Below are positions 10,941 to 16,155 of a DNA stretch of 64,000 nucleotides, piece by piece. The stretch lies in assembly GCA_018401875.1 (NCBI GenBank), contig JAGYJZ010000007.1:62001-126000 (forward strand), written 5' to 3'. Made by a program: the position numbers and the translations under genes. The first letter of the stretch is position 1, and each line of letters begins with the position of its first letter. The notes under the pieces are model-generated. The model saw only the letters and a list, made by a program, of their open reading frames with translations. It was not told the origin of the DNA and did no database searches. The stretch comes from Salibacteraceae bacterium (GTDB lineage: Bacteria > Bacteroidota > Bacteroidia > Flavobacteriales_G > Salibacteraceae).

Positions 10941-10968
10941 AAACCGGAGATTATTCTTCGGTTTTTTT
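10941..10968 (+). terminator. intrinsic terminator after the DUF1883 gene
   Basis: Stem AAACCGGAGA with TCTTCGGTTT (one G-T pair), four-base loop, seven T. Confidence 0.85.
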
Positions 10969-11084
10969 GTGCCTTTTAAACAATGCAGCTACAGTTATTA
11001 ATTTTCATTCGAACGAAGTCGCTGGTCTAAATTGGTTTTTCTAATTTTCGAAGTAGAAAGTTCTCATTGATGTTTGTTTCGTCT

Positions 11085-11277
11085 GGTAGCTTAACATGCA
11101 AGTCTCACCAGGCAGTTTTATAAGGTCGAGATCGGACCGAATCCTATATCAAGGACCCTTTTTAGGGCAACATCGGATGATCGGAATGTTATATCTGCCT
11201 TAATCCTTATCAAGAGGTATCATCAGGCTGAGCAAACAATATTGAAGCCTTGTTCATTTTTAGAACAAGGCTTTTTT
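11085..11277 (+). ncRNA. candidate structured small RNA
   Basis: The 394-base gap between the DUF1883 gene and the TRL-like gene holds no convincing ORF but ends in its own intrinsic terminator (11245-11277), with no coding sequence between the two terminators. Nested pairings can be drawn: CTGGT 11093-11097 with ACCAG 11108-11112; CCGA/TCC (11138-11145) with GGA/TCGG (11176-11185), enclosing a CCCT-tttt-AGGG hairpin at 11157-11168; and GCCT...AGGC with an inner CCT/AGG helix around 11198-11234. It does not match the conserved cores of tmRNA, RNase P RNA or SRP RNA that I know; 6S-like RNA cannot be excluded. The 5' end is uncertain and no clear promoter box was found. Confidence 0.4.
11245..11277 (+). 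terminator. intrinsic terminator of the candidate RNA
   Basis: Perfect 11-bp stem, AAGCCTTGTTC with GAACAAGGCTT, seven-base loop, six T. No coding sequence ends between this and the previous terminator. Confidence 0.9.
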
Positions 11278-13182: not shown

Positions 13183-16155
13183 ATGAGGCGATTGGTTCTG
13201 TTGTCGATTCTGGTTATTGCGTCATCGCATGCGTTGGCCCAAAAAAGTGAGTTGATTATATCAGGTCGTTTCAAGATTGATGGCAGTTCAATGAGTGATT
13301 CAAAAATCATTGTTGAAAAAAATGGGCGTCAAGTCAAGTCGTTAGATGGCAGCTCGAAGTTTGAAATTGCCCTAGATTTTCAGTCGATCTATGTCATTTC
13401 TTTTGTAAAAGAAGGTTTTGTAACAAAGAGACTACGGTTTGATACCAATGTTCCTGTCGACAGAATTGAATACGGATTTGAACCATTTGGCTTTTCTGTT
13501 GAATTGTTTGAACAATACGATGATGTCAATTTGGTTGTTTTCAATCAGCCAGTTGGGAAAATTTCTTACAGCGAATTGATTGACGAGTTTGATTATGATA
13601 CAGACTACACTAAGTCTATTCAAACTCAAATCGATAAAGCCATGGATGATGTGGAGGTGGCCAAAGAAAAGAAGGTAGAGACAGATGCTGCAAATTCGAA
13701 AGAGATTGCTAACCTAACTAGTTCCGCAGAAAAAAGTGCTAAATCAGGTGACTACACAGCAGCAATCACTAATCTTGAAAAAGCAGCAGCCCTCAAGAAG
13801 GATCCAGCAATAGAAAAGAGGATTCAGGATCTAAAGCAAGAAGCTGCAAAACAAGAAAAGCAGAAAGAGTTTAATGGTGTAATGACTCAAGCTGATGCTT
13901 TGATGGCCAAAGGTGATTTAGAGGGAGCGAAAAAGCTTTACGATCAGGCAAATGGTATCATGGGCGGTGACCCGAAAGTAAAAGAGCAACTCGCAAAAAT
14001 TCAGCAAGAAGAATCAAGGCAAGCTCAGGCAAATGCCGCTTTTGATCAGGCAGTGAAAGAAGCGCAAACAGCAATGGCAGCGAATAACTTTGACCTGGCA
14101 ATAGCAAAAGCTGAAGCAGCATTGGCTCTCAAAAAGAATCCTGAAGCAGAGAAAATATTGGCACAAGCCAAATCATCCAAAGATTCTGCAGATCAAAAGG
14201 CAGCTGCAGAGGCAGCAAAGTTGGCGCAAAGTCAAAAACTTATCGCTGACGGTGACAAGGCCTTTGAGAAAGGGGATTTCGATGCGGCAGAAAAGCTTTA
14301 TGCAGAGGCGAAATCAATATCACCCGAGGCAAGCATAGATGAAAAATTAAAGAAAGTAACCGCTGCAAAAGCCGAATTAGCTGAGGAACAGAAAAAACAA
14401 GAGCAATCCAAAGCTCAATTGAATGAACTTATTGGCGCAGCGCAAAAAGCACTTGCAAATGCGGATGTTGCAGGTGCCAAAGAAAAACTTGCTCAAGCTT
14501 CTGCATTGGGAAGCGATGAGCGCATAGGTCAACTGCAAAAAGAAATCGCTGCAGAGGAGGAGAAAATAGCCAAAGCCAAGGCCCAAGAGCTCGAGAATAA
14601 GGCTGCCATTGATCAATTACTCTCCTCAGCTGATAAAGCCCTTGATGCCGGTGATTTTGCTGCTGCAGAAGAATTGTTTAATCAATCCGCGTCAAAAGGA
14701 GCTGATCAAAAGCGCGTTGCTGATGGATTAGCTAAAGTGCAGGCAGGGCGTGATGCGTTGGCCAAGGCCGAAGCAGAAAAAGCAGCGCAGCGCCAAAAGG
14801 AAGAGGAAGCAGCTGCCAAGGCCGAAGCTGAGGCGAAGGCGGCAGAACTAGCTGCTAAAGAGGCGGCAGAAAAGGCAAAAGAAGATGCCAAAGCGGCTGC
14901 TGAAGCAGAAAAAATAGTAGCGGCCCAAGCCGAGAAGGAAGCAGCGGAAAAGGCCGCATTAGAAGCCGAATTGGCTGAGAAAGCATCTAAGGAAGCTGAA
15001 CAGAAGGCTAAGTTAGAAGCCGAAACAGCCGCCAAAGAAGCTGCGGAAAAGGCCCAAGCTGAGGCAGATGAAAAAAAGAAATTGGAAGAAGAAGCAGCTA
15101 ATGCAGCGGCAATGAGCGAGCAACAAAAAGAAGCTGCTGAGAAAAAAGCACAAGCAGAAAAAGAAGCGCAAGAACTAGCAGAGAAGGAAGCTGCTGAAAA
15201 GGCCAAGGCTGAAGAAGCAGAACGATTAAAACAAGAACAAGATGCCGAGAAGCTGGCTAAAGAAGAAGCTGCTCGATTGCAAGCAGAAGAAGCTGCGCGT
15301 GTAAAGGAAAATTCAAAAAACCTTGAATCAGCCGAGCAGCTCGCCCAAGCGGAGGCAGAGGCTAAAGCAAAATTGGAAGCTCAAAAATTAGAGCAAGAAG
15401 CCGAGGCAAAAGCGACATTGGAAGCAAAGCTTGCTGCAGAAAAATCAGCTGAAGAGGAAGCGCAGAAGCAAAAATTGTTGGAAGCGCAAAATTATAAATC
15501 ACAGGCGGATGATTATTTAAAAAAGAATCAACTTGATCAAGCTCTCGCCTCATACAATGAAGTGCTCAAGCTGATTCCTGATGATCAAGAGTCAACATCA
15601 AAGATTCAACAGATTACAGATCTGAAGAAGAAAATGGCCGCAGAAAAGGAAAAGGCGAAAGAAGCTGCCGTGGCCCTCACCGAGCAAGGTGGGCGAGAGT
15701 CTGAACAGTTGGCTCAAATCATCCAAGAGGAGGAACAAAAGGCCAGCACCAAAGAGATTGTAGCTCCAACCCTTGCCAAAGTGCCGAACGAACGCCCCGG
15801 AGCCCCATCTGGTCCGATCACGATCTCGGATCCAAAAGTGGGGAAGGAAGCTCTTCAAACAAAAACAGCGCAGCTAACAGAAGACCAGAAGTATGACGGT
15901 CAGCTCAAAAGAACAGAGGCGCAGCAACAAGAGTTTTATGAAGATCAAGAGCAAAAGCGATTGAAAGAAAAATATACCACCCGAAAAACAGTTGAAACTG
16001 AAAAAGCTGGGAATAGTTTAATTACGTGGATTTATATGAATACCGGCAACTTCGTCAAAACCTACAAAAAGGTCGAACACAATTGGGGTGGAGTCTACTT
16101 CTTTATCGATGGTCAAGCTACAAATCAGCGCTTTTGGGAACACGAAACGCAATAG
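13183..16155 (+). CDS. secreted giant Ala/Glu/Lys-rich repeat protein
   Basis: A 990-residue protein with signal peptide 1-19. Residues 20-140 look like a carboxypeptidase-regulatory or Ig-like beta domain. Residues 165-500 hold degenerate TPR-like units built on 'A..A...GD...A...Y..A', for example GDYTAAITNLEKAAAL and GDFDAAEKLYAEAKSI. Residues 500-780 are an uninterrupted Ala/Glu/Lys/Gln coiled coil resembling the linker of TolA. One further TPR unit follows (YLKKNQLDQALASYNEVLKL). The last 60 residues form a small globular domain rich in aromatic residues (TWIYMNTGNFVKTYKKVEHN). The layout suggests a long periplasmic or surface spacer with a terminal binding domain. Function unknown. Confidence 0.7.
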   Translation: MRRLVLLSILVIASSHALAQKSELIISGRFKIDGSSMSDSKIIVEKNGRQVKSLDGSSKFEIALDFQSIYVISFVKEGFVTKRLRFDTNVPVDRIEYGFEPFGFSVELFEQYDDVNLVVFNQPVGKISYSELIDEFDYDTDYTKSIQTQIDKAMDDVEVAKEKKVETDAANSKEIANLTSSAEKSAKSGDYTAAITNLEKAAALKKDPAIEKRIQDLKQEAAKQEKQKEFNGVMTQADALMAKGDLEGAKKLYDQANGIMGGDPKVKEQLAKIQQEESRQAQANAAFDQAVKEAQTAMAANNFDLAIAKAEAALALKKNPEAEKILAQAKSSKDSADQKAAAEAAKLAQSQKLIADGDKAFEKGDFDAAEKLYAEAKSISPEASIDEKLKKVTAAKAELAEEQKKQEQSKAQLNELIGAAQKALANADVAGAKEKLAQASALGSDERIGQLQKEIAAEEEKIAKAKAQELENKAAIDQLLSSADKALDAGDFAAAEELFNQSASKGADQKRVADGLAKVQAGRDALAKAEAEKAAQRQKEEEAAAKAEAEAKAAELAAKEAAEKAKEDAKAAAEAEKIVAAQAEKEAAEKAALEAELAEKASKEAEQKAKLEAETAAKEAAEKAQAEADEKKKLEEEAANAAAMSEQQKEAAEKKAQAEKEAQELAEKEAAEKAKAEEAERLKQEQDAEKLAKEEAARLQAEEAARVKENSKNLESAEQLAQAEAEAKAKLEAQKLEQEAEAKATLEAKLAAEKSAEEEAQKQKLLEAQNYKSQADDYLKKNQLDQALASYNEVLKLIPDDQESTSKIQQITDLKKKMAAEKEKAKEAAVALTEQGGRESEQLAQIIQEEEQKASTKEIVAPTLAKVPNERPGAPSGPITISDPKVGKEALQTKTAQLTEDQKYDGQLKRTEAQQQEFYEDQEQKRLKEKYTTRKTVETEKAGNSLITWIYMNTGNFVKTYKKVEHNWGGVYFFIDGQATNQRFWEHETQ

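Follow-up and report, generated by a model that had tools for sequence, protein, structure and literature searches.

The DUF1883–TRL gap and its predicted transcription signals

The window, that is, the whole 64,000-nt stretch of a Salibacteraceae contig analysed here, carries on its + strand a gene for a DUF1883 protein (PF08980, 10533..10913), followed at about 10943-10969 by the terminator of that gene. On the far side of the gap lies a TRL gene (PF13146); LytB (ispH) is a further neighbour. These Pfam assignments were made for the proteins of the window only; the neighbours at other loci are referred to as "like" proteins. A second intrinsic terminator is located in the gap at 11245..11277 of the + strand, with a stem formed by 11245-11255 and 11263-11273, a loop of 7 nt and six T residues at 11272-11277. 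Fold prediction renders it as a 12-pair hairpin, and a pattern scan gave its inverted repeat on the - strand only. Further along the window, at 13183-16155, is a 990-aa ORF that is very rich in Ala, Glu and Lys repeats.

The initial annotation had pointed to this second strong terminator as one with no ORF in front of it, preceded by bases able to form stems, and had read the arrangement as that of a small RNA gene. The first two points hold. From the DUF1883 stop (10913) to the second terminator the + strand has no ORF of at least 40 aa; a 51-aa TTG-started ORF on the same strand begins only within the terminator. The 303 nt from 10975 to 11277 have a predicted folding energy of -80.3 kcal/mol, lower than that of all 100 of 100 dinucleotide shuffles (z -3.58). 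A protein-coding gene was rejected, since there is no such ORF and the conserved core described below varies in length from 165 to 171 nt with indels that are not in threes. An Rfam scan of the window gave nothing above the gathering thresholds, and ARAGORN found neither a tRNA nor a tmRNA in it.

The feature flagged by the annotation, 10969-11277, proves to be real and narrower than proposed. Comparison of 12 homologues delimits a structured core of 167 nt at 11072..11238 of the + strand, supported by covariation, and the transcript of the RNA gene probably extends from about 11054, an inferred start, to 11277, some 220 nt. A candidate -7 box, TAATTTTC, is located at 11042..11049 of the + strand, to be compared with the Bacteroidota consensus TAnnTTTG (PMC7366714). 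A TAnnTT begins 26-30 nt 5′ of the core in 10 of the 12 loci, against a random background of 3.0% for five such offsets. No clear -33 box could be defined upstream of the core. The promoter scan looks for sigma-70-type sites and is uninformative for this Bacteroidota locus. At the other end, a terminator follows the core, by eye, in all 12 loci. Gap conservation, covariation, the -7-box-like TAnnTT and the constant terminator together support the small-RNA reading of the layout.

Distribution, fold and covariation

When 60 relatives were searched at the DNA level, the block turned up in the genome of the window and in six other genomes of the genus, with the match in G001 reduced to 26 bases. 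An eighth match, at L008, hit a terminator and was left out of the count. Among 42 genomes of the order, the covariance model R1, built from these seven close relatives, finds the RNA in 12, with one copy in each: 11 of the 13 genus genomes, the window's included, and G015, which belongs to another genus. A second model, R2, built from all 12 copies and run on 40 genomes, scores these 12 at 102.8-163.9 bits and nothing else above 20 bits; the low-scoring matches within the order were treated as chance. As for the two RNA-negative genomes of the genus, the contig of G012 stops inside the DUF1883 match, and no match to DUF1883 was obtained in G008, which is 82% complete. Further afield, R2 with default filters reported from 198 genomes of the phylum its own match and six others, which did not exceed 24 bits and did not fall where the Rfam 6S-Flavo model matches in these genomes; no 6S-Flavo gene was found in this way. 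A pattern search of 395 genomes gave a single match, the window's own genome, and the DUF1883 loci of four other genera (g9, g14, g7 and g16; six genomes in all) have no such RNA nearby. Members of the family were detected in genus g1 and G015 alone, and nothing outside these two genera was convincing.

The surroundings of the RNA are largely constant. Over the 12 loci, a DUF1883-like gene adjoins the RNA in 12, an ispH-like gene is a neighbour in 11 and a TRL-like gene in nine. L009, L012 and L013 have the RNA intact and no TRL-like gene next to it, and therefore the RNA and TRL are not a fixed unit. At L019, an ORF that by eye resembles an IS1595-type transposase (L019:1-806) takes the place that ispH has at the other 11 loci. 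Alignment of the gap in relatives, which the annotation had proposed as a check, shows that the gap is conserved where the neighbours are kept and that it covaries strongly; the unconserved gap that would have spoken against an RNA gene is not what relatives show.

In the consensus fold, a closing stem of 15 pairs leads to a 5′ bulge of some 25 nt, which faces a hairpin of 5 pairs, and to an apical arm made up of four helices. In the window, all on the + strand, the 5′ strand of the closing stem (GUUUGUUU.GUCUGGU) lies at 11072..11087 and its 3′ strand (AUCAGGC.GAGCAAAC) at 11222..11237, with 97.7% of the cells of this stem paired across the alignment. Between the 5′ strand and the arm is the large bulge, 11088..11109, with the sequence CUUAACA. 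The apical arm, interrupted by internal loops, spans 11110..11200, and 19 of the 23 pairs of its helices 2-5 are changed on both sides. The small hairpin opposite the bulge (helix 6, CCUU/GAGG) occupies 11205..11217 and has 90% of its cells paired.

The alignment from which these values derive, A5, comprises the 12 sequences and was fitted to R1, and so it leans towards the structure of R1. In A5, 92.8% of cells can pair, against 79.6% in shuffled alignments and 32-43.5% when the structure is slid by one to three columns. Both sides are changed in 24 of the 43 pairs versus 13.8 in the shuffles, and 68 cells carry such changes versus 22.3. None of 500 shuffles reached either the paired-cell share or the count of pairs changed on both sides. 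An alignment of seven sequences not fitted to the model, folded by RNAalifold, has 13 of 43 pairs changed on both sides, and RNAalifold applied to A5 predicts 36 pairs, 19 of them with changes on both sides.

Not all of the fold is free to vary. Five inner pairs of the closing stem are invariant in the 12 sequences. The CUUAAC of the bulge is found in 10 of 12 copies, AUCAGGC in the 3′ strand in 11, and UUCGUCUG, where the conserved stretch continues into a paired stem, in all 12. At the inner closing stem and the bulge, the sequence matters beyond pairing.

Likeness to 6S RNAs and the zapA-rny gap

The annotation had named the 6S model of Bacteroidota as a search to be made. In canonical 6S RNA, an outer stem closes the molecule, the 5′ side opens into a large central bulge with a hairpin opposite it, and the apical stem is interrupted by internal loops (PMC8414754). 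The consensus fold described above has this layout of the RF00013 type: a rod with a closing stem, a 5′ bulge, a looped apical arm and an opposite hairpin. The Rfam models themselves did not recognise the RNA. Neither RF00013 nor RF01685 (6S-Flavo) matched any of the 12 copies at E<=10. On whole genomes, RF00013 matched 0 of 60 relatives at E<=1 (5 of 14 controls were matched), and RF01685, run at E<=0.001, matched none of the 13 genomes of the genus; the same model matches 21 of 198 genomes of the phylum.

To compare the folds, we scanned 12 loci with a 6S-Flavo gene, taken from the 198-genome phylum search and belonging to family f25, which we take to be Flavobacteriaceae, with the filters off. 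The best match of R2 is the 6S gene, on the correct strand, in 12 of 12 loci, at 11.5-26.9 bits, the best other place scoring 11.4. For R1 the six top matches are at 6S genes; it has a match in place at 10 of the 12 loci, and in eight this is the best of the locus. R2 matched three of five further 6S-Flavo stretches of about 500 nt each, did not report two from family f24, reached at most 8.1 bits on 16S regions and did not report E. coli ssrS. In the reciprocal direction, the 6S-Flavo model R3 finds the core at a single locus of the 12 (L016, 11.1 bits), and its other matches near the core are terminators. Sequence-only profiles (profile HMMs) gave no link between the RNA and either 6S group in either direction. 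Hence, of the 6S suggestion, the part that stands is the 6S-like layout and the choice of 6S-Flavo genes by R2 with filters off; the Rfam 6S and 6S-Flavo models have no match, and the canonical 6S lies elsewhere, as follows.

In the three loci of the 12 for which the genes were read, 6S-Flavo lies between zapA and rny, and E. coli ssrS is likewise 3′ of zapA. Because both adjoin zapA, we examined the zapA-rny gap in the candidate's own group. The rny gene was found in 11 of 12 genomes searched; the window's own genome, which is incomplete, is the one without it. R3 detects a 6S-Flavo-type RNA in the gap at all 11 loci (L097-L107, e.g., L102:1219-1456), at 21-57.6 bits and E values from 7e-11 to 0.01. 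By DNA similarity, this canonical 6S has a single copy in every one of the other 12 genomes of the genus, in G001 and G005 by short matches only, and was not found in the incomplete genome of the window. Both Rfam models miss it (RF01685, 0/13 of the genus; RF00013, 0/60 relatives), and a new seed alignment would catch it. It follows that, in the relatives, the DUF1883-side RNA is a second RNA, and the idea that it is the sole 6S RNA of the genus was dropped.

The candidate resembles these two 6S groups in different ways. With 6S-Flavo it shares the closing stem, the open 5′ bulge and the irregular apical arm, and comparison shows that the folds are alike. The small 3′-side hairpin can be seen by eye in some 6S-Flavo sequences, e.g., as CUUG/CAAG in L028, but it is lacking in their RNAalifold consensus. 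The locus is different as well, the candidate adjoining DUF1883 and not sharing the zapA-rny synteny. In addition, the candidate is followed by a local terminator of its own; the outer stem of 6S-Flavo, by contrast, continues with its 3′ strand into the U-tract. The canonical 6S of the genus has a similar bulge junction (GUAACCUGAACA in the one, GUAGCUUAACA in the other) and a boxA-like leader; it differs in being longer, and R2 does not match it even with filters off.

Two short motifs recur in all three groups. A CUNAAC, expected by chance in about 1% of cases per 15 nt, is found close to the junction of stem and bulge: it reads CUUAAC in 10 of 12 candidate copies and CUCAAC in 12 of 12 6S-Flavo RNAs, and it is present in nine of 11 zapA-rny RNAs, the remaining two of which read AUCAAC. 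The CUC of CUCAAC is paired in 6S-Flavo, whereas the corresponding bases are unpaired in the candidate RNA. The second motif is in the leader. The strict form, G[TC]TC[TA]TT, is found upstream of six of the 12 candidate copies (background, 1.6% of 40-nt stretches); the window has a degenerate version, GTTCTCA, at 11060..11066 of the + strand, that fails it. The same pattern is upstream at 12 of 12 6S-Flavo loci (background 5%) and close to the model match at nine of 11 zapA-rny loci (background 2.8%), the other two having it further upstream. It is present in only two of the five further 6S-Flavo stretches, being absent from L068-L070. GTTCTTT also stands 85-91 nt before 16S in the four rRNA leaders of the genus that were read; two 16S leaders of 6S-Flavo-bearing genomes lack the exact GTTCTTT. 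The sequences are related, and the counts on them are not independent trials. We call the motif boxA-like after the boxA of rRNA antitermination, and any such role here is putative. The occurrence of a boxA-like GTTC[TA]TT before many canonical 6S genes (L021-L032 and L097-L107) suggests antitermination-type control of 6S.

Proposed role and alternative readings

The comparisons establish a conserved gene with a conserved fold, conserved synteny, and promoter-like and terminator signals. That this is a real, new and narrowly distributed structured RNA gene is, judged from the sequences, near certain. As to what it does, we favour, with reasonable but far from full confidence, the proposal that the DUF1883-side RNA is a second 6S-type, promoter-mimicking RNA. 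In this proposal, a stand-alone gene with a primary-sigma promoter and its own terminator would yield a non-coding, structured transcript of about 220 nt. The closing stem, the open 5′ bulge with its opposite hairpin and the looped apical arm would imitate an open promoter, and the mimic would occupy the RNA polymerase holoenzyme. Release would follow once the polymerase has used the conserved bulge and inner stem as the template of a short pRNA, predicted to start 5′-GUUAAGCUACC. Open-promoter mimicry and release through pRNA synthesis are described for 6S RNA (PMC8876501).

We propose the 5′ bulge, 11088..11109, as the pRNA template, with the start opposite C11095. By our own readings, the pRNAs would begin with GUUAAGCUACC for the candidate, GUUGAGUUU for 6S-Flavo and GUUCAGGUU for the genus 6S. 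A GG at pRNA positions 4/5 or 5/6 is noted for lactic acid bacteria and some others (PMC8414754); it is absent from the predicted GUUAAGCUACC and likewise from GUUGAGUUU of 6S-Flavo.

There are partial parallels elsewhere. Bacillus subtilis has two 6S-type RNAs in one genome, 6S-1 and 6S-2 (PMC11077062), and its 6S-1 likewise has a hairpin opposite the 5′ bulge (PMC8876501). For the Bacillus RNAs the binding of sigma-A polymerase is demonstrated, whereas for the candidate it is a prediction, and the likeness is drawn from their description. Within Bacteroidota, 6S and pRNAs have been detected in Bacteroides thetaiotaomicron (PMC7366714) and 6S in Flavobacterium psychrophilum (PMC9723704). The titles and abstract openings of the literature matches listed hold no report of a second 6S, or of a boxA before 6S, in Bacteroidota.

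Other readings have to be weighed against the 6S-type proposal. The RNA could be a lineage-specific, trans-acting sRNA that pairs with mRNAs through the unpaired CUUAACA, its 6S likeness being a coincidence. We hold this to be unlikely, yet the most probable of the alternatives: the unpaired stretch is highly conserved, the family was detected in genus g1 and G015 alone, and sequence homology to 6S is lacking. A simple seed, however, would not be expected to continue into a paired stem as the conserved stretch does (UUCGUCUG in all 12 copies); a covarying fold of six helices is more than a pairing sRNA needs; and R2 selects 6S genes in every one of the 12 test loci. An RNA like Ms1 of Actinobacteria, which binds core polymerase without sigma and would yield no pRNA, would account for a 6S-like layout without sequence similarity and for conserved synteny; Ms1 itself has a 6S-like shape and was found through synteny where sequence search fails (PMC9130861). 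The comparison with Ms1 is again by description, and the core-polymerase binding of Ms1 sets it apart from the RNA as we propose it. No 6S was found in the species in which Ms1 was studied (PMC11077062), whereas the relatives studied here have a canonical one, and we regard an Ms1-like RNA as improbable.

The remaining two readings carry little weight. The RNA is directly upstream of the TRL-like gene at nine of the 12 loci, which is the position of a cis-acting leader or riboswitch, but at the other three the RNA is intact with no TRL beside it, a terminator ends every copy and the consensus fold offers no alternative antiterminator pairing; a TRL leader is very improbable, and we reject it on the three loci. 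Least probable of all, to the point of being hardly credible, is a non-functional chance fold ahead of a stray terminator. The covariation far exceeds that of the shuffled and slid controls and the RNA is conserved across two genera, which, barring an alignment artefact, refutes chance folding.

A bolder reading, which we rate somewhat below an even chance, is that of a Bacteroidota lineage with two promoter-mimic RNAs: the canonical zapA-rny 6S and the DUF1883-side RNA, unrelated to it in sequence, that has its own pRNA and perhaps serves another sigma factor or growth phase. Any division of labour between the two is a tentative idea. The second RNA may be of independent origin, or it may have diverged beyond sequence recognition.

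Were the RNA to bind polymerase, a Bacteroidota genome would have a second 6S-type RNA, one in which the fold has been kept without recognisable sequence, and this would test what a promoter mimic really needs. If the 6S reading fails, the RNA is a structured sRNA that is new and restricted to its lineage, still a new family with strong covariation. In either case, Rfam misses the canonical 6S of this genus, and a boxA-like motif stands ahead of many Bacteroidota 6S genes.
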